Assembly: GCA_003388505.1 (NCBI GenBank)
Contig: QQVO01000012.1
Coordinates: 1 to 64,000 of the forward strand
Reading direction: 5' to 3'
DNA: 64,000 nt
DNA from: Planctomycetota bacterium
GTDB taxonomy: Bacteria; Planctomycetota; Planctomycetia; Planctomycetales; Planctomycetaceae
This document shows, piece by piece, positions 2,176 through 56,690 of this stretch. The translations under genes were made by a program, and so were the position numbers. The notes beneath the pieces were generated by a model. It saw only the letters and a list, made by a program, of their open reading frames with translations. It was not told where the DNA came from and made no database searches. Every line of letters begins with the position of its first letter. The stretch's first letter is position 1.

Positions 2176-3084
2176 TTAGAAGTGCAGCTTGATGTTACTC
2201 TTGATCCGGGCCCGAACATCTTCGAGGGCCTGCTCCAGCGCCTCTTGGACGTCGTGATACGTTCCGTCTTTCTTACCTCGAATCACGACATACCAGCCGT
2301 TCTCTGCCGGGAAGGTCAGCGTGGTGCGTTGGCGAGTTTCTTTCGGCTTGCCTCGCCGCTGGCGGACGGCGTTGGCCGCCTGTTTGTGTGTCATGCGGCC
2401 GCTGGCGGCACTCTGGGCGAGTCTCCGACGTGCCTCGTCGCCCGGAAGTTTGCTGATTTCATACGCCGACCGCGCCGCGAGCTGCCCGGAGTCCACCTGC
2501 TGTTGTACGTCCTCGGGCAGGTTCAACAGCGCCAAGGCGCGACTCACTTTCGACGGATCGATGTGCAGTGCGGCTGCGAGTTGTTTGCCGTTCCACCCGT
2601 TGAGTTCCATCAGAGAGGCGAATGCCCTCGCCTCTTCGATCGGCTTAAGGTCTTCGCGAAGCAGGTTTTCGACAACCTGCTGCTCCAACAGCTCGGACTC
2701 TGAGAGCGGGCCTTCATGGAAATAACAGTCGATGGACTCCAGGCCGGCTGCCTGAGCAGCGCGCCAACGCCGTTCTCCTGAGATGATGATCCAGGCCTGC
2801 TGCTGCTCGTCCCACCGCACACGAATTGGAAACAATTGCCCCTTACTGTGGAGACTCCGTGCCAAACGTGCAATAGATTCGTCGGAAACCTCCTTGCGCG
2901 GCTGATGTGGATCAGGCAAGAGGCGGTTGATGGCGATTTTCCCGAAACCGCCCGCGGGCTTGCGGCCAATATCCTTGGGTGCGGCTACGGGGCTGAGCTG
3001 AGATCGTCGTCTATCGCGCCTTGCGCCCATCGACTCATCAAGATTGCTGCCTAGCTGTTCCAGCGTCCGTCGGGTAGTGGCCAT
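2176..3084 (-). CDS. parB: ParB-family partition protein
   Basis: A 302-residue ParB/Spo0J-type DNA-binding partition protein. The ParB N-terminal domain covers about residues 45-140, with ISGERRWRAAQAAG (box II, the CTP/parS-clamp motif) and then ENLLREDLKPIEEARAF. A helix-turn-helix region follows (LAAALHIDPSKVSRALALL, about 170-190). The C-terminus is a short basic/acidic helix region. ParB binds centromere-like parS sites and stimulates the ATPase of ParA to segregate low-copy replicons. Its ATG overlaps the ParA stop by one base (TAATG), so the two are translationally coupled. The pair sits immediately inside repeat R1, which suggests the interior segment is or was a plasmid-like unit. 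Confidence 0.93.
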   Translation of the reverse strand: MATTRRTLEQLGSNLDESMGARRDRRRSQLSPVAAPKDIGRKPAGGFGKIAINRLLPDPHQPRKEVSDESIARLARSLHSKGQLFPIRVRWDEQQQAWIIISGERRWRAAQAAGLESIDCYFHEGPLSESELLEQQVVENLLREDLKPIEEARAFASLMELNGWNGKQLAAALHIDPSKVSRALALLNLPEDVQQQVDSGQLAARSAYEISKLPGDEARRRLAQSAASGRMTHKQAANAVRQRRGKPKETRQRTTLTFPAENGWYVVIRGKKDGTYHDVQEALEQALEDVRARIKSNIKLHF

Positions 3085-3896
3085 TACGCAACGTGTGTTC
3101 GTTTGTTACTCATAGCAATGTGGTCGAGAATCTCACGGCTCAATTGCTTTGTCAAAACCGCGGCCGCCGATCGGGGGGCGTGGATTGAGACGGGCTGACG
3201 GCAGGCAAGCGCGACTTTGAATGCTGAGAACTCCGGAATGACTGTCTCCAGCACCGACTGCCCGTACAACTCGCGAAGTCGTTGCTCGTAAGCGCGGTGG
3301 ACCAGCAACCGGCTATCGGACCGAGTGACAACGTGTCCCAGGCATTGAAGCCCAGGATTCAACCGTCGTGCCTGCTCTATTGCCTGATGCACGACCCGCA
3401 ATCCCTGAGTGCCAAAGTCTTCTGGTGGAACGGGCACGAGGCACCAGTCACAGGCCACCATGGCGGACCACGTGCAGCGGTATAGATTTGGCGGACAGTC
3501 GACGAGAATGACGTCAAAAGCAGTGAGGTCGTCTACGAATTCGCGTAGCGCGAATTGTGCGAGGCCGGTAGTTTCCGGGGCGGGTGTGTTCAAGCGAGCC
3601 GAATGCGAATTGGCGGGACAAATTGCGATTCCGTCGAATTGGGTGCGTTGAATCACACGCCTTTCCCCGAACCCAGCCTTTTCCGGGGCCAGCAGAGCAG
3701 CCACGGTCAGCTCGGGAGGCAGGGCTTCGACAAACTCCGACCCAAAAAAACCCTGGCTAAGAGACCCCTGCGGGTCAGAGTCGATCAGCAAGACGTGCAG
3801 GCCGGTCTGAGCGAAAGCGCCGGCGAGGTGAAAGCAGATGGAGCTCTTACCGCAACCACCCTTTTGATTGATCAGGCAAATCGTCGTCGCAGTCAA
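3084..3896 (-). CDS. parA: ParA-family partition ATPase
   Basis: A 270-residue deviant-Walker ATPase. The P-loop KGGCGKSS at about residues 11-18 has the signature first lysine of the ParA/MinD/Soj family, with Ser where Thr is more common. The DSDPQGSLSQ stretch (Walker A' region, about 40) and LVDCPPN (Walker B, about 131) follow. ParA proteins form ATP-dependent gradients on the nucleoid that move ParB-parS complexes. The start is most likely the TTG at 3896, preceded by a GAGG site; no ATG is suitably placed. The gene is first in a two-gene operon with parB. Confidence 0.93.
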   Translation of the reverse strand: MTATTICLINQKGGCGKSSICFHLAGAFAQTGLHVLLIDSDPQGSLSQGFFGSEFVEALPPELTVAALLAPEKAGFGERRVIQRTQFDGIAICPANSHSARLNTPAPETTGLAQFALREFVDDLTAFDVILVDCPPNLYRCTWSAMVACDWCLVPVPPEDFGTQGLRVVHQAIEQARRLNPGLQCLGHVVTRSDSRLLVHRAYEQRLRELYGQSVLETVIPEFSAFKVALACRQPVSIHAPRSAAAVLTKQLSREILDHIAMSNKRTHVA

Positions 3897-4442
3897 GCGT
3901 CCTCATCTGTGGTGGAATTGCCAGTGACAATTCTCTGTAAGTCGTCAGAATCCCTTTCGATAATCTGTCATGGCCTGTCAAAGGTCGTCAATCAAATTGT
4001 TCCTCCGGTACGCAGTCAGCTTGTTGTGCATTGCGGAACGTGTCGTGGTTTCACCTTTGCCGCCTTCGCAGGCGACGAAAATTCTCGTTGCCCGTACCGG
4101 CCTAATAACGCTACGTTTTGGAGGAGTTTATTAACTTGGGCCCGGCGTGAAGCCCGGGCCATCCGTGGAGGACAAGACGACGACATAGACGACCGCCGCC
4201 GAAAGTAAAGAAAAAAGCGACCTCGTTGGGAGCGACGTCGCTTCTTCAGGATCCACGGCCGCACGAATCGACGGAATCCGTGGTCAAACGGATGACTTGA
4301 CCTCACCTTATTTCACTTTCCGTCGAAGAGTCAACTGGCAAACGTCATGGGTCCGCAGGGCAGGTGCGCCCTGAGACATGCATCGCGCTCGCGCGGTTCG
4401 GGCGAACGGATCGGTGCGTCTTCCGCGAAGGGAGCGAATCCA
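3897..4442. other. Intergenic region between parA and the winged-helix gene; candidate replication/partition control region
   Basis: The region holds no credible gene. It holds two hairpins: GGCCCGG...CCCGGGCC near 4138-4160, and AAGCGAC...GTCGCTT at 4215-4243, flanked by A-rich and T-rich sequence like a terminator. It separates divergent genes (parA minus, putative Rep plus), so it must hold both promoters. I could not identify a canonical parS palindrome or iterons. Confidence 0.4.
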
Positions 4443-5694: not shown

Positions 5695-6348
5695 TCATGC
5701 GACAGAAGACAAAGTCTGATTTTGCTCGTACTGCCGCATGGCACGGTAGAGTTCCACAGTCGCCCAGACATCGTTAATGGCGTCGTGGAATTCGTCTTGC
5801 CTGAGTGGCACGCCAAAGTACTGGCAGAGCGTGGCCAGTTGGAAATCGGCGGGTGGGGTGAGTTGCTTGTATTCCTGAAACAGCCAGTACGCCCGTTGCT
5901 TCGTACAAAACACGCTGTAGGTTGCGGGACAAAACCGGTCAAGTTGGCGAAACCAAGCGTGAATCAGCGGGCCATCGAACCGCTCGGCATTGTGGGCGAC
6001 GAGTTGCGCTAGGCGGTACGGCTTGCCGCTACGAGACATCTTGTCGACCGTGGCATGCCGTCTCAGGAATGCGGCAAATCGAGCGGCTGCAACCGTCGGT
6101 GGTAATGCGTGACGAACCCAGATGTCCGCGTCGTAGTGATTCTTCGACAATGCAGCCGCGTCAGCATCAACTTCGTCAAATTGCACTTTGACTTCAAACG
6201 TTTCGCAGTCGCGATCGTCGCGATCAATGGCGATCGCGGCGATTTGAATGATGGGCCTGGTGACTTCCACCTCTCCGGCAACGATGTCGAAGAACCCCGC
6301 CGTCTCAATGTCAAAGAAGACGAGCCGCTCGTCGAATGAGCACGACAC
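5695..6348 (-). CDS. DEDDh 3'-5' exonuclease (DnaQ/RNase T-like)
   Basis: A 217-residue exonuclease of the DnaQ-like superfamily. All three motifs are visible: Exo I FDIET (residues 12-16, supplying D and E), Exo II HNAERFD (about 142-148), and Exo III with H-x4-D (FHDAINDVWATVELY, about 190-204), which makes it the DEDDh subtype. These enzymes use two metal ions to remove nucleotides from 3' ends of DNA or RNA. It is a stand-alone nuclease domain with no polymerase attached. It is convergent with the putative replication gene, so a role in element replication or DNA processing is plausible but not shown. Confidence 0.88.
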   Translation of the reverse strand: MSCSFDERLVFFDIETAGFFDIVAGEVEVTRPIIQIAAIAIDRDDRDCETFEVKVQFDEVDADAAALSKNHYDADIWVRHALPPTVAAARFAAFLRRHATVDKMSRSGKPYRLAQLVAHNAERFDGPLIHAWFRQLDRFCPATYSVFCTKQRAYWLFQEYKQLTPPADFQLATLCQYFGVPLRQDEFHDAINDVWATVELYRAMRQYEQNQTLSSVA

Positions 6349-6737: not shown

Positions 6738-7079
6738 GGAATTCGCGGCAACGTCAAGTCGTCACAGGACCATCACCGCGGGATGACAAACAGGTGACAA
6801 AACCGATGGCTGTGCTATGGTTCGCGCGAACACATCGCCAGAACGCGAGCGTTCTTCGGTGTGGCGTTCGCGGAAGGTCTGCCTGCGAAACCCCGGATTT
6901 ACCACCGGGGTGAAGGGAGAAGGTGCTGCTTTTGTATCGCAGTCATTCGGCGTCGGCTGTCAACCGTCGCTCAGTCCTCCGCTTGGCGGCGGATGCATCG
7001 AGAGGTGCTTGTCCGTCGCGAGGGGTATTTGTCGGTCCAAGTCGTGATGAAGTATCTACGGCGAATCCCGTCATCTGAC
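6738..7079. other. Non-coding stretch upstream of the structured RNA
   Basis: No credible gene. A hairpin CCCCGG...CCGGGG lies at about 6891-6909. The segment may hold the promoter and 5' part of the structured RNA that follows; its boundary with that RNA is not defined by the sequence. Confidence 0.35.
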
Positions 7080-8640
7080 CCCATTCACCATTGCGATCAC
7101 GGGCGACCGAGACAAGCTTTGGTCTCGCGGTTGGAAGTTTCATCCGCTTGACCAGAGTCGTGACAAGCAAAGGCCGTGCGCGACAAAACGTGCGGCGGGA
7201 TAATGTGCTCGACGCACATTATCCTCGGGTGAGAGACATCGACGTCTCAAATACTCCGCATACGGGGACAGCCGAAAGCGGTTGCGGTGCCATAAGGCAT
7301 TGCAGGGACCAGGGTACGGCCGAAGGGTCGCGCCTGCGTGAAGGTGATTTGCTTTGGGAAATCACTGACACACCCGGTCAACGTATCTCGGTGGGGGAGC
7401 CATCAGCGGCGAAAGCCGCGATGCCGCAGATCATCCATGGTCTGCGGGCGAGCTGCGAAATCGGCTCGCGTGAATAGCTCAACCGACCAGAAGCCCGAAC
7501 GGGCGACCGAGTAATGAGTTGGTGCCTGATGGACAGGCGGCGCCGAGTCTTGCCCTTCGGGAGCGAGACGATGCGTCAGAGACGGGGGACCAAGCTGTCT
7601 GCGAGGTCCCGATTGAAGCCGAATCGCAAAAAGGTGTTGGGGAGATGCAGTAAGCCGGTGCTTGGGTGTTCGGCCGGCTGAAAGCTCACAGGTCATGCTG
7701 AGTGAGACGGAGCGTCGCCGAGAGGCGGAGCTCTACCCCAACGGTGCGTCCTGAACGCGCCTCTGAGCCTGAGGGGACGCAGAGTCCCCGGCGACGTGAC
7801 TACCAACTCGACGACATGCTTGTCACTAATCGGGGAAGGCTTCAGCCGTGAGCGGGATTGACACCCCGCCGTGTCACCGTGGTGACACGATGCGAGCTGA
7901 TGTCCGGGAGCGTGGTCCGAGGGTCCGCGGTAACGCGGGCTGTCAGTAGAAGTCAGTGACCGGAGTCGGCGAGAGCTGACCGAGTTGCTGAGCGGTGTTC
8001 CGGGGGAAACTCCGGACATAGTTGCTGCGTGGGCAACGCACTGGCCTCAGTCCTGTCGCGAGGCAGGCCGTCAGTGAAGCGTTTACGTGGGAATTCAACT
8101 GTGCACGGCAAGGCAGTCGTGACCCGTTTGCTGTGAACCGGGCTGGTAACCCGGCGAGCGACGACGAAAGGACCGAGGCGGTTGTCGGCTCTGCCGACGG
8201 AAAACCGCGAACGCCATGCCCTGTCCCCTCGGCCTGCTTCGGCAGCCGGGGGGACAGTGTTCGAGAGGATTGAAGACGGAGTCTGAATTGTTGTTCCGAG
8301 AGGGACGACAGTTGAGGCAACGCTGTCGGCGGTGGCGGCTCGACGTACTCGTGTGCGTGCGAGTCCACCGCGAAGGTTTTTACGCGGACGTGGGTGAGGG
8401 TGTCTCCTGAGTGCGAACTGCATTTGGGCGTGATTGCGCGGACTTCGGTTCGTTTTTATCGACGCATGCATGAGCATGCGGCTGCAATCTTGAACACTCC
8501 ATGCACCGGCCGCAAAGAGGAATCGACGGGCGGTTCTGCACAAGGTCAGCGTTTTGCAGACAAGGAATTCAAGCATAGGAATCGGTTTCGTGGGGTTGTC
8601 CGTCAACAACCTCACACCTTCTTTCGAGGGCTGTTGGAAC
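7080..8640 (+). ncRNA. Candidate large structured RNA (about 1.5 kb)
   Basis: About 1.5 kb with no credible reading frame but dense strong hairpins. Examples are GGATAATGTGC/GCACATTATCC (7198-7224, 11 bp), GTGATTT/AAATCAC (7344-7365), GTGTCACC/GGTGACAC (7871-7888), CTGTCCCC/GGGGACAG enclosing a TTCG-capped stem (8221-8257), and GCATGC/GCATGC (8464-8479). GNRA-like and TTCG loops recur. Some 5' sequence resembles group II introns: GTGCGCGAC at 7176, ACAGCCGAAAGC within 7264-7281, and CAGTAGAAGTCAG at 7944-7956. However, no reverse transcriptase and no obvious domain V are present. The RNA reads in the same direction as the adjacent 238-aa gene. Ends are approximate. It may be a degenerate group II intron or an unrelated giant RNA. 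Confidence 0.5.
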
Positions 8641-8653
8641 GAAAGAGGAAAAC

Positions 8654-9370
8654 ATGAATCGAAAGCAGTACCGCTGCGAAGCCCGGAGCGTAGCCGGGTT
8701 CGTGGCACAGATCGTCCGCTACGTGGCCAGCGGGCACTATTTCTATGTGCGGGTGCTGATCCCCGAGCACAAAGAGCCCCGCCTGGTCGATGAAAAGCTG
8801 TTGCGGTTGTACGACATCGCGCGGCCGGCCTGGCGTCGCGAACGCCGCCGCCTCAAGAGGTCCGCCGGCATTCACTACCTGCGGTACGACCGCCTCGCGG
8901 TGATCATGTTGACGAAGGGCCGGCATGATCAGTTCTACCAGGACCATGGCCGGTCCGTGGCCGACATCCGCCGGCAGGCGCTCAAGGTTCTCGGTTACTC
9001 AATCCGCCTCAGCTACTCAACTGCCGAACAGCGCACGAAGGTCTTCATCCGATTGGACGAAGATCGCTACCGCGAACTCAAGAACCACTTCATCACTATG
9101 TCTGCTTGGGAATCATTCCGCGACCCACTGCGGTTGGAACGTGAGTTCCGGCGTTTGCCGGTGCTGGCCTATGACCCGGTGTTCGATCAACTCGTGGCCA
9201 TCGCCCGGCAGGTGAACCGAACTCGCCGGCGCCGCGGCTTCGCTCCGATCCGCCTACGTTGTCTCCCTTGCAAGGTCCAGCCGACCAAGGTCTTCACAGA
9301 GCAGGCGGACGGCTTGAGCAAAGCCAACCTGCGGAGTCCAGTGATATCAACCGGAGCATCATCGCAGTAG
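8654..9370 (+). CDS. Basic protein next to the large structured RNA
   Basis: A 238-residue, strongly basic protein. It contains ARPAWRRERRRLKRSAGIHY (about residues 56-75), a central region with MLTKGRHDQFYQDHG, and an arginine-rich tail NRTRRRRGFAPIRLRC. No catalytic motif is recognised. The start at 8654 follows AAAGAGG, and a 9-bp hairpin (about 8600-8625) precedes the ribosome site. Direct placement behind 1.5 kb of structured RNA, with many Arg residues, suggests an RNA-binding partner. I infer this from position and charge alone. An IS3-type transposase starts 12 bp after the stop, so the last 20 or so residues may be altered by that insertion. Confidence 0.6.
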   Translation: MNRKQYRCEARSVAGFVAQIVRYVASGHYFYVRVLIPEHKEPRLVDEKLLRLYDIARPAWRRERRRLKRSAGIHYLRYDRLAVIMLTKGRHDQFYQDHGRSVADIRRQALKVLGYSIRLSYSTAEQRTKVFIRLDEDRYRELKNHFITMSAWESFRDPLRLEREFRRLPVLAYDPVFDQLVAIARQVNRTRRRRGFAPIRLRCLPCKVQPTKVFTEQADGLSKANLRSPVISTGASSQ

Positions 9371-9381
9371 GAGGGCATACA

Positions 9382-10491
9382 ATGATGAAACCCAAGCGAC
9401 AGAGCCCATCACAAATCGTTGAGTCACTGAATCGGGCTGAGCGGATGCGCAACGATGGCCAATCGATCGCATCCATTTGCCAGGAACTGGGCATTAGTCG
9501 ACCGACATACTACCGATGGAAACGCGATTACGGCGGCATGACCTCGAGGCGGGCGGAAGACTGGGCAGCAATGCTGCAGGACCGCAAGGGCCTCCTCCAG
9601 TCGCTCGGTGAGCAGTCGAAGCAAGTCGAGATCCTGCGCAACGTCGTGGAAGGAAGCCTCGTCAGTCCGTCTCGCAAGCGAGAAGCCATCCGTTGGCTTG
9701 ACCGGCAAATGATCATCAGCGAGCGTCAGGCCTGCCGGGCGCTGTCGCAACACCGCTCCACGCAACGGTACCGTCCGCAGACCTCGCAGAAGGAAGAAGC
9801 GCTGCGGGAACGCGTCGAAGTCCTCTCTCAGCGATATTCCCGCTTTGGGTATCGCCGTATCTGTGCCATGCTCCGCCGCGAGGGGTGGCACGTGAATCCG
9901 AAACGGATTCATCGTATTCGGCGCAGTCAGGGATTGACCGTAAAAGCCTTGCGGAAACGCAGCGGGAAGGGCGGAGCGACACTGGAACCAGAGAATGTGA
10001 TTTGCGCGGACGGAAAGAACGTGGTCTGGGCCTGGGACGTGATTGATGGCTGGCTCGCAGGCGGCCGGTCCGCCAAATGGCTGACGGTCATCGATGAATA
10101 CACGCGTGAACTTCTCGCCCTCGAGGTGGCCAAGAGAACGTCGGCAACATGGGTCATCGCAACTTTGGAACAGATCCTCACAGAACGCGAGCCACCAGAA
10201 TTCCTACGAAGTGACAATACGCGGCCATTTGTGACTGATCAGGTCGATAAATGGTTGCGTTTGGCCGGCATACCCGCAGTAAACATAACCCCCGGCTCCC
10301 CATGGGAGAACGGACACGTCGAGGCCTTCCACGCCCGATTGCGGGACGAGTTCCTCAACGTCGAGGAGTTCGCATCTATGGATGAAGCAAAACGTCGCAC
10401 GGCTATATGGCGAGATCACTACAATCACGTGCGTGTCCACAGCGCCCTGAATTATCTGACACCAGCGGAGTTCGCGGCAACTCTGGAGTGA
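9382..10491 (+). CDS. IS3-type transposase, OrfA and OrfB fused in one frame
   Basis: A 369-residue transposase. Residues 1-60 are a helix-turn-helix (ICQELGISRPTYYRWK). Residues 120-200 match the OrfB lead-in (SRFGYRRICAMLRREGWHVN). The rve/DDE core follows, with D in VWAWDVIDGW, D in FLRSDN and E in HVEAFHARLRDEF. Most IS3 members need a programmed frameshift to join OrfA and OrfB; here they are continuous. The usual DNGPEF motif reads DNTRPF, which may weaken it. The start follows AGGAGG at 9369-9374. I could not define terminal inverted repeats confidently. Confidence 0.85.
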   Translation: MMKPKRQSPSQIVESLNRAERMRNDGQSIASICQELGISRPTYYRWKRDYGGMTSRRAEDWAAMLQDRKGLLQSLGEQSKQVEILRNVVEGSLVSPSRKREAIRWLDRQMIISERQACRALSQHRSTQRYRPQTSQKEEALRERVEVLSQRYSRFGYRRICAMLRREGWHVNPKRIHRIRRSQGLTVKALRKRSGKGGATLEPENVICADGKNVVWAWDVIDGWLAGGRSAKWLTVIDEYTRELLALEVAKRTSATWVIATLEQILTEREPPEFLRSDNTRPFVTDQVDKWLRLAGIPAVNITPGSPWENGHVEAFHARLRDEFLNVEEFASMDEAKRRTAIWRDHYNHVRVHSALNYLTPAEFAATLE

Positions 10492-55011: not shown

Positions 55012-56400
55012 ATGGCAGCCATTTACAAGCGTGCTCAGGACACTGGCAGGAAGCGAGCCTGTTGGTATATCGGCTACACCGACCACACCGGGAAAAGAAG
55101 GACCAGAAAGGGATTCACGGACAAGGGTGAGACCGAGCGGCTTGCGGCCAAGCTGGAGCACGAAGTGATGCTCCGCAAGCGGGGGCTCATTGACCCGGAG
55201 CAGGAAAGGAACGCTGAAAAACGGCGAATTCCGTTGAAGGAACATCTGGATGCGTTCGAGAAGAGCCTCACAAAGAACACTTCGAAACACGTCAAGCTGA
55301 CGATGAGTCGGATTCGGCGAATCGTCGACGGCTGTGAATTCACAGTACTTGCCGACATTACGATCGAATCCGTTGAACAGTTTCTGGTTGACCTTTGCGA
55401 GGAAGAGGATCTCGGGCACCGCACATACAATCATTACGTGCAGGCGCTCGACTCTTTTTGCAGGTGGTTGGTCGCAACAAAGCGATCACTCCTGAATCCT
55501 GTTCTCGGAATGGAGCGGCTGAATACGGCCGTCGATATCCGGCACCCCCGCCGGGCTCTGACGGCAGAAGAAGTCGCAAAGCTCGTGGGCTCGGCCCGCG
55601 AAAGCGGCAAAATGATCCAGTGCTACGACGGCGAAACACGGGCAAGGATTTACATTCTGTCATACATGACGGGACTGCGGCGCAACGAGCTCGCATCTCT
55701 CACTCGGCGAAGCTTTGATCTGAATGCCGAGCAGCCGACTGTCACAGTCGAGGCCGCCTTCTCCAAGCACCGCCGCAAAGACGTGCTCCCGCTTCATCCG
55801 GAGCTGGTGGAAATGCTCAGGGGCTGGCTCGAAGGGCTCAGGCCAGATGGGTTGCTCTTTCCAAAGCTCGCGAAGCGGCGCACGTGGCTCATGGTCAAGA
55901 AGGACTTGGAGCGGGTCGGTATTCCCTACGAGAACGCCGATGGAATCGCAGATTTTCACGCCGCCGGCCGACACACGCATATCACCGAATTGCTCCGCAA
56001 TGGGGCGACGCTTCCTGAGGCGAAGGAGCTGGCCCGACACAGCGATATCAAGATGACGATGCGGTACACGCACATCGGTATGAAGGACCAAGCCAAGGCA
56101 GTCAGTCAACTCGCCTGGCACGCCTCAGCCGACCTCCCGGCAGATGGAGCGGGGCAGGAATCGGATGAAGAGAACGAAGAGGAATGCTGGGAGCGTTTTG
56201 GGAGTGCCTCAGGTGTCACTCGGTGTCACAATGGGGCACGTAGTGACTCTACATGCGAGTTGCATATAAACGACGCAACCCCTGTCATAGACAGGGGTTG
56301 TCGCCATTTTTCGCCGTCTGACAGCGATCGTCAAAAGTGGAGGCGGCGGGAATCGAACCCGCGTCCTGTGAACCCTGAGATGGGGCTTCTACGTGCGTAG
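55012..56400 (+). CDS. Tyrosine integrase at the tmRNA attachment site
   Basis: A 462-residue phage-type integrase. It has an N-terminal arm-binding part (AIYKRAQDTGRKRACWYIGY), a core-binding domain (about 75-165) and a catalytic domain with TGLRRNELASL (Arg I), FHAAGRHTHITELL (His/Arg II box with an extra residue, as in other planctomycete integrases), and ARHSDIKMTMRYTHIG (His III and Tyr). The last 60 residues beyond about 400 look unlike integrase and run antisense into the 3' end of tmRNA. Functional enzyme may end earlier, or the tail was acquired at integration. The start could also be TTG at 54991. Confidence 0.9.
   Translation: MAAIYKRAQDTGRKRACWYIGYTDHTGKRRTRKGFTDKGETERLAAKLEHEVMLRKRGLIDPEQERNAEKRRIPLKEHLDAFEKSLTKNTSKHVKLTMSRIRRIVDGCEFTVLADITIESVEQFLVDLCEEEDLGHRTYNHYVQALDSFCRWLVATKRSLLNPVLGMERLNTAVDIRHPRRALTAEEVAKLVGSARESGKMIQCYDGETRARIYILSYMTGLRRNELASLTRRSFDLNAEQPTVTVEAAFSKHRRKDVLPLHPELVEMLRGWLEGLRPDGLLFPKLAKRRTWLMVKKDLERVGIPYENADGIADFHAAGRHTHITELLRNGATLPEAKELARHSDIKMTMRYTHIGMKDQAKAVSQLAWHASADLPADGAGQESDEENEEECWERFGSASGVTRCHNGARSDSTCELHINDATPVIDRGCRHFSPSDSDRQKWRRRESNPRPVNPEMGLLRA
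56276..56300. terminator. Bidirectional terminator-like hairpin beside the island end
   Basis: CAACCCCTGTC-ATA-GACAGGGGTTG is a perfect 11-bp stem. On the plus strand ATTTTT follows 6 bp later; on the minus strand it lies 38 bp beyond the tmRNA 3' end. It sits within the 3' part of the integrase frame, which argues that the final codons of that frame are not conserved coding sequence. Confidence 0.6.
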
Positions 56401-56690
56401 ACGGTCGTTTGGGTCTCGCTGCGATCGGCACGGCCGACAGGGCCTTACGCAGCCAGGTCACGACTTGTCTCGCTGCCGGCGTAGTGTCCGTTGACCGGCA
56501 GCCAGCCTGATTTTGTGACCGGCGTTTGGACTCCTCAGGCAGGGATTCCTAGGCCGGGGTCACTTATTTAAGCAACCAGAGCGTACTGCTTGTTGGCAGT
56601 TATTGTGTGATCAGCTTTTTACGTGGCCGGCTGATCAACCACGGCACGCGACCCACACCCGCGGAGAACCAGTCGAAGCCGATCGCCCCC
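56338..56690 (-). ncRNA. ssrA: Transfer-messenger RNA (tmRNA)
   Basis: The tRNA-like ends are clear: 5' GGGGGCG (56690-56684) pairs with 3' CGCCTCC (56345-56339), with discriminator A at 56338. CCA is not encoded. The T arm is GGGTTCGATTCCC. The tag frame reads GCC AAC AAG CAG TAC GCT CTG GTT GCT TAA, giving ANKQYALVA after resume codon GCC, preceded by TAACT. It rescues stalled ribosomes with SmpB and tags proteins for degradation. Its 3' end is the island attachment site. Confidence 0.95.

Follow-up and report, generated by a model that had tools for sequence, protein, structure and literature searches.

A probable circularly permuted group II ribozyme in Planctomycetota and its AcpG partner, a protein with a predicted reverse transcriptase-like palm and thumb

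The analysis of a 64,000-nucleotide stretch of Planctomycetota bacterium DNA (contig QQVO01000012.1, hereafter the window) revealed a long structured RNA followed by a 238-residue open reading frame, which very probably represent a circularly permuted (CP) group II ribozyme with its associated protein, AcpG. As read from its sequence, the RNA is predicted to be a self-splicing group II RNA in permuted form that releases a tiny RNA circle. An earlier note on this DNA had considered an undescribed RNA-protein element; this suggestion falls away, since CP group II RNAs and the AcpG family were both published in 2021 (PMC8637638) and are already known kinds, of which the planctomycete lineage has its own architecture. 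According to the main text of that paper (Roth et al. 2021), CP group II RNAs carry domains 5 and 6 (D5/D6) before domain 1 (D1) and a GGGCG 5' splice site, have predicted circles of 15-86 nt, and form circles and branched products in vitro; some exist without any acpG. The same text names AcpG from Thermus and other phyla, reports no homology to any known class, and states the biological role of the RNA and of AcpG as unknown in 2021. Among the matches listed from the open-access literature, where subscription papers and preprints are hardly covered, it is the only paper having AcpG or CP group II RNA as its subject, other papers touching on circularly permuted group II RNAs only briefly. Neither its main text nor the literature listed was found to describe Planctomycetota or Cyanobacteria members with acpG directly downstream, models of AcpG resembling reverse transcriptase (RT) or Prp8, a recurrent linkage to parA, or introns in CP D5. 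The hosts found here include Planctomycetota and Cyanobacteria, and neither word occurs in that main text; planctomycete members may be present in the supplementary lists of the paper.

The conserved RNA extends from about 6986 to 8640 on the forward strand (∼1.65 kb, compared with a published average of ∼900 nt in the main text of PMC8637638) and follows the order D5-D6-short linker-D1-D2-D3-D4. D5 (6986-7019) reads GCGGCGGA U GCAUC GAGA GGUGC UUG UCCGUCGC, a helix of 8+5 bp capped by a GNRA loop, with CGG instead of AGC or CGC at the position of the catalytic triad. D6 (7020-7084) contains a candidate branch-point adenosine at 7078, bulged as far as can be judged from sequence alone (AUCUGACCCCAU in the window, UUCUAUCCGAU type in relatives), and the 3' splice site falls after CCCCAU (7084). 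Between the reversed splice sites lies the 16-nt linker UCACCAUUGCGAUCAC (7085-7100), which is the predicted circle and whose final 6 nt constitute IBS1. The 5' splice site GGGCGACC and D1 occupy 7101-7835, with an approximate 3' boundary; the approximate D2 (7836-7905) is taken from the consensus fold and is followed by J2/3 (GGGAGCG, 7906-7912), the approximate D3 (7913-8174, with ACGACGAAAGGACC as 3' strand) and a region of weaker conservation (8175-8640) composed of a D4-like hairpin and more 3' hairpins up to the open reading frame. The acpG family gene comes next on the same strand (8654-9370) and encodes a protein of 238 residues with a pI of 10.8 (50 K/R versus 24 D/E), in agreement with the earlier description of an RNA leading into a basic protein gene in the same direction. 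That description had placed the RNA at 7080-8640; the region stands but its start does not, since the conserved RNA begins at D5. Likewise, the impression of group II-like strings in the 5' part was correct, although the ones that matter are D5/D6 (6986-7084) and GGGCG (7101). The domain order, the GGGCG 5' splice site, the D6 branch adenosine, the small predicted circle and the linked AcpG are all shared with the 'T-large' CP group II RNA, as presented in the main text of PMC8637638. In the window's own genome, the RNA and the protein have one match each.

The structured nature of the region was evaluated by folding and by comparison between relatives. The folding energy of 7080-8640 is -714.1 kcal/mol versus -616.4 +/- 9.8 kcal/mol in 30 dinucleotide shuffles (pair span limited to 300; z=-10). 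Mechanical open reading frames do occur within the RNA region, such as 7953-8708 on the minus strand; the conservation of 7080-8640 is nevertheless of the RNA type, because 45 homologous RNAs show paired, two-sided changes, which bears out the proposal of ∼1.5 kb of structured sequence without a convincing gene. These 45 RNA bodies, window included, come from 52 loci with a D5 pattern after removal of one without a 3' splice-site match and six without a 5' splice-site match, and were aligned with MAFFT and folded with RNAalifold. In the resulting consensus, 90.5% of the cells of 234 pairs are paired and 180 pairs (2160 cells) display double-sided changes, compared with 36-43% of paired cells and 116-133 pairs (396-537 cells) with double-sided changes in slid-partner controls; the consensus was derived from the alignment on which it is scored, a bias in its favour. 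The covariance over homologues found with the 238-residue protein, which had been proposed as a check, is seen as double-sided changes in 180 of 234 pairs.

Covariation also supports a tertiary pair between D5 and J2/3. In J2/3, GGGAG is followed by C in all eight RNAs with a CGN triad and by U or A in all 37 with AGC (35/35 without L093 and L114, in which the D5 read is that of an inserted intron); Fisher's p is 5e-9 for the 8 and 37 RNAs and overstates the association, because related sequences are not independent. For the recognition of the 5' splice site, the six bases before it were compared with every D1 position within the first 420 nt in 38 sequences (window excluded, a few 5' splice sites misassigned), using columns with at least 25 sequences. 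One outlier emerged at alignment column 1015, with 4.68 of six pairs versus 3.85 expected (z=6.2, the next column reaching 3.1). This column, which we regard as putative EBS1, aligns to GUGUUC at 7666-7671 of the window, which was outside the 38 and forms 5/6 pairs with its own IBS1 (GAUCAC, 7095-7100). Besides, a D1-core covariance model (R1) built on 27 sequences drawn from the 80 named loci described below, and containing neither the window nor its nearest relative L032, finds the window at 7370-7538 with 63.4 bits (E=9e-17). The same model also finds the RNAs of Leptolyngbya, Calothrix (twice), K2D and Planococcus, and gave no match in the Thermus loci or in pPNAP05 (Polaromonas), whose CP RNAs differ in this respect from those of planctomycetes.

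The relatives display the same anatomy. A helix scan recovered D5, a D6 ending in the branch-A/3' splice-site motif, a short linker and GGGCGAYG, with D5 located before D1 and ∼1.1-1.9 kb upstream of the open reading frame. The set examined comprises 68 RNAs, namely the window, L032 and the 69 loci with a model match except L076, L130 and L142; GGGCGA, the pattern sought, is present at the 5' splice site in 63 of them. Predicted circles range from 12 to 220 nt across relatives, some sites being misassigned by the pattern. In Rhodopirellula europaea (L080), neither D5 nor the splice-site motif was found upstream of acpG. The scan with a group II covariance model for domains V and VI, also advocated in the earlier note, was positive for relatives and negative for the window. 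Indeed, Rfam RF00029 (Intron_gpII) matches D5/D6 at the RNA 5' end, ∼1.0-1.4 kb upstream of the open reading frame, in 9 of 25 relative loci (2/8, both just below the gathering score, 5/12 and 2/5) with a best score of 49.4 bits, but it gave no match in the window between 6800 and 9500 even at E<=10, and Rfam at gathering score returned only a tmRNA. An RNA class that is new and unrelated to group II is ruled out by D5/D6, GGGCG and these Rfam matches of relatives. A canonical mobile group II intron having lost or replaced its RT would also account for the group II D5/D6 and D1-like features; this explanation is extremely improbable and, as a canonical intron, ruled out by the domain order, because D5/D6 precede D1 in the window and its relatives. 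Moreover, the splice sites are internal and reversed, and RF00029 gave no match downstream of the open reading frame, either in the window or in the 25 relative loci covered.

Under the preferred reading of a CP group II ribozyme, the activity of the window copy itself is uncertain because its D5 triad reads CGG. Clean triads could be read in 53 RNAs, with 45 AGC (two of which, L093 and L114, come from canonical introns inserted there), six CGC and two CGG, the latter exclusively in the window and L032, neither of which has the AGC-type triad; the homology of the window to AGC-bearing relatives comes from the model match at E=9e-17, obtained with the window excluded. Inspection of the other 15 RNAs showed a D5 with one extra base in five (L109, L118, L123, L129, L144), a variant D5 in two (L077, L094) and an inserted intron in three (L079, L132, L150). 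Judged by its triad, the window RNA may splice slowly or not at all, and the rarity of CGG would fit a decayed CP group II copy that kept its structure, lost catalysis and survives as a leader or as a binding site for AcpG. We hold this possible but somewhat doubtful, since the window and L032, whose identity over 7241-8520 is 85%, agree in D5, in the D6 ends, in both splice sites and in 13 of the 16 bases of the linker, and retain the J2/3 C that accompanies CGN triads.

In five loci (L079, L093, L114, L132, L150), we also observed that the 3' end of a canonical group II intron, with its own D5/D6, lies just ahead of the CP D5's 3' half, which would fit repeated, twintron-like insertion of canonical introns into the CP D5; the 5' ends of these introns were not located. 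L079 (617 aa) and L132 (597 aa, with an internal stop within the aligned length) carry an RT open reading frame with YADD.

The anatomy suggests how the RNA could work. The transcript would fold as D5-D6-linker-D1-D2-D3-D4, and the branch adenosine of D6 would attack the 5' splice site located downstream of D6. The freed 3' end would then attack the upstream 3' splice site, so that the 16-nt linker would be released as a circle and the remainder would form a branched (T-shaped) RNA. AcpG would presumably be translated from the same transcript; if it is, as we suspect, a degenerate group II maturase reduced to the RT palm and thumb and lacking both the fingers and the catalytic aspartates, it may bind and steady the permuted ribozyme in the way Prp8 does with the spliceosome core.

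The association between the RNA and acpG is strongly conserved, another expectation of the earlier note that was confirmed. Of 170 genomes from this bacterial family, 31 contain AcpG matches, counting the window's own; the other matches are 30-78% identical. In the same 170 genomes, the D1 model gave 42 matches in 32 (own included), of which three run off a contig; positions were compared by hand, and acpG lies directly downstream on the same strand in 37 of the 39 testable RNAs. The two exceptions are an intact RNA in G057 (no acpG within 1.5 kb) and a cut-short one in G085. Conversely, the RNA accompanies acpG at 37 of 42 places (43 rows, since one broken gene accounts for two), and the contig extends less than 1.2 kb upstream at the remaining five. 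A nine-sequence profile scan of named genomes yielded 104 relatives, 80 of which were kept as loci (L072-L151). Most carry titles of Planctomycetota groups (Rhodopirellula europaea, TBK1r, Gemmata, Tautonia, Phycisphaerae), a small number are titled 'bacterium', and single metagenome-assembled genomes bear the names Hydrogenedentes, Calditrichota and Deltaproteobacteria. A D1-model match is present at 69 of the 80 loci, 27 of which had built the model, always on the acpG strand; ten of the 11 loci without a match have 1,036 nt or less of upstream sequence and L146 is a true miss, while L142 combines a weak upstream match with a stronger one downstream of acpG. Seven plasmid records also contain relatives (Leptolyngbya, four; Calothrix; Planococcus; Planctomycetes K2D). 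AcpG relatives were absent from the phages searched, single-protein and profile scans confirmed none on viral contigs, and single-protein scans of genome contigs with AcpG found nothing. On one Calothrix plasmid (L155), two CP group II RNA copies (1838-2011 and 3979-4152) precede a single acpG.

The assignment of the window protein to the AcpG family relies on a chain of profiles compared pairwise. Comparison of the planctomycete profile (A1) with the Leptolyngbya/Calothrix/Planococcus/K2D set gave E=6e-47, and hhalign against a proteobacterial profile (A4) gave E=7e-20; A4 contains the pPNAP05 protein adjoining its CP RNA and eight relatives, one from E. coli, and in turn matches five Thermus proteins (A5) at E=5e-14, again with hhalign. 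A1 compared directly with the single AcpG of pTT8 detected no similarity, and a search of pTT8 with A1 was also empty. Through this chain, the window protein belongs with TTHC007 of Thermus thermophilus pTT8, an AcpG that likewise stands beside a CP group II RNA; P0008 and P0002 are taken to be the published AcpGs because of their length and their location beside the RNA. The lineages differ in orientation: the RNA is upstream of acpG on the same strand in all planctomycete pairs found, whereas it is divergent in 4/5 Thermus loci, pPNAP05 and 5/8 other proteobacterial plasmid loci, the remaining three giving no match to the splice-site pattern. AcpG homologues were also noticed on ∼30-kb E. 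coli plasmids (L200, NZ_CP045715, and nine further); in L200, the CP group II 5' splice-site pattern is divergently upstream of the homologue.

What AcpG may be was addressed by structure prediction. AlphaFold models were obtained for the window protein (pLDDT 88, 52-sequence alignment) and for the AcpG of L083 (pLDDT 93.8, 44 sequences mostly common to the former alignment), the two being 34% identical. Among the PDB rows listed by VIA-align, the best 50 for either model consist of RT-type proteins and of spliceosome chains, the latter presumably Prp8. The best matches are proteins of group II intron ribonucleoproteins, 8t2r_D for the window model, with Z 9.8 over 183 residues (rmsd 3.8), and 8h2h_D for L083, with Z 9.9 over 206 residues (rmsd 4.9). 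Models lacking a clear match typically reach a best Z of 7-8, which is not much lower; both alignments span palm then thumb, in order. Foldseek with the window model gave group II-type or retron RTs as the best five (best E=3e-3, none <0.001). At the sequence level, the AcpG profile aligns marginally with 14 RTs (E=0.012; reversed profile 14.3 versus 27.7), with a score that 2 of 120 column shuffles also attain; the mean and standard deviation of this control are unreliable because of one outlier score of 135. In this alignment, the Y-L-R motif (Y-L-R-Y-x-x-x-x-V) falls on the YVRYADD hairpin and GYSI on FLGY. DD at the aligned YADD is found in none of 65 AcpG rows, so AcpG was not filed as an RT, in line with the earlier statement that the element has no active RT.

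These models make an RT palm/thumb fold likely for AcpG. The modest Foldseek value, the hhalign E-value equalled by shuffles and the searches of Pfam, NCBIfam, PHROGs and PDB sequences, whose best hit is a DUF in one member (E=0.007), would also be expected of an unrelated small RNA-binding or replication protein in which a chance alpha/beta arrangement resembles a palm. This explanation seems unlikely, given that two members so divergent both retrieve RT-type proteins or Prp8 in their best 50 rows, that the Y-L-R and GYSI motifs align with the YADD hairpin and FLGY, and that the partner RNA is itself group II derived. The best structure rows and the loss of the YADD aspartates suggest a degenerate, fingerless and polymerase-dead group II maturase, a role that we hold with less confidence than the fold. 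With group II RT/maturases and Prp8, AcpG would share the predicted palm and thumb, the group II-derived partner RNA and an open reading frame 3' of D4; planctomycete AcpG differs from group II RT/maturases by its ∼200-240 aa, the absence of fingers and YADD aspartates, no DNA-binding/endonuclease part being seen, and a marginal sequence similarity. The idea that an intron had swapped its protein is therefore probably wrong, since the protein resembles a shrunken dead RT/maturase in the usual place. The main text of PMC8637638 presents TTHC007/AcpG as lacking homology to a known class, in contrast to the RT/maturase-like fold predicted here. If AcpG is a pseudo-RT maturase, its association with CP RNA would be explained and the origin of the element would be clearer, its gene having kept the position 3' of D4 that is expected for an intron-encoded protein; it would also offer a directly testable ribonucleoprotein paralleling Prp8 in the spliceosome.

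The gene neighbourhood offers a lead to biological function. In the window, a ParB-like gene (2176-3084, one of two ParB in the genome) and a ParA-like ATPase gene (3084-3896), both recurrent neighbours identified with Pfam, form a pair on the minus strand (2176-3896), opposite to the RNA and a few kb upstream of it. Of the 47 loci whose upstream sequence reaches at least 4.8 kb, 26 carry a ParA P-loop motif on the opposite strand and 21 lack it. The single-contig genome G014 has a parB whose end lies 4.6 kb ahead of acpG. The recurrence of parA, the position of the CP RNA near the origin of plasmid pPNAP05 reported in the main text of PMC8637638, and the parAB genes nearby on plasmid pLBX together suggest, from gene context, a link to replicon maintenance. 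The widest reading sees AcpG as the miniature dead maturase of a circle-making ribozyme, an independently simplified bacterial counterpart of the Prp8-snRNA core carried by parAB replicons of several phyla, in which the branched ribozyme or the circle would act in replicon maintenance; our confidence in it is evenly balanced. TBK1r, Gemmata sp. IIL30, Tautonia sociabilis, Leptolyngbya boryana and some E. coli plasmids make the system approachable.

Several other elements were observed around these loci. The RNA also has rep or par genes close by on some of the plasmids. An RNase_T/DnaQ-type exonuclease is encoded in the window at 5695-6348 on the minus strand, and its cluster has members at 11 of 82 loci. 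Directly after acpG stands an IS3-type transposase (HTH_Tnp_1, HTH_21, rve; 9259-10491), also present in L032 with 70% DNA identity. A 90-nt palindromic repeat (GCGTTAGGGATG...AACGCCC) is found downstream of acpG in L072, L073, L074, L075, L089, L109, L122, L127, L129, L132 and L139, in two copies in L072 and L074, and is preceded in several loci by a 130-nt hairpin repeat; these ∼90-nt repeats may be a dispersed repeat or a recombination site, an integron attC or REP-like origin having been considered. Finally, the window contains a tmRNA gene at 56335-56690 on the minus strand, with the tag ANKQYALVA.
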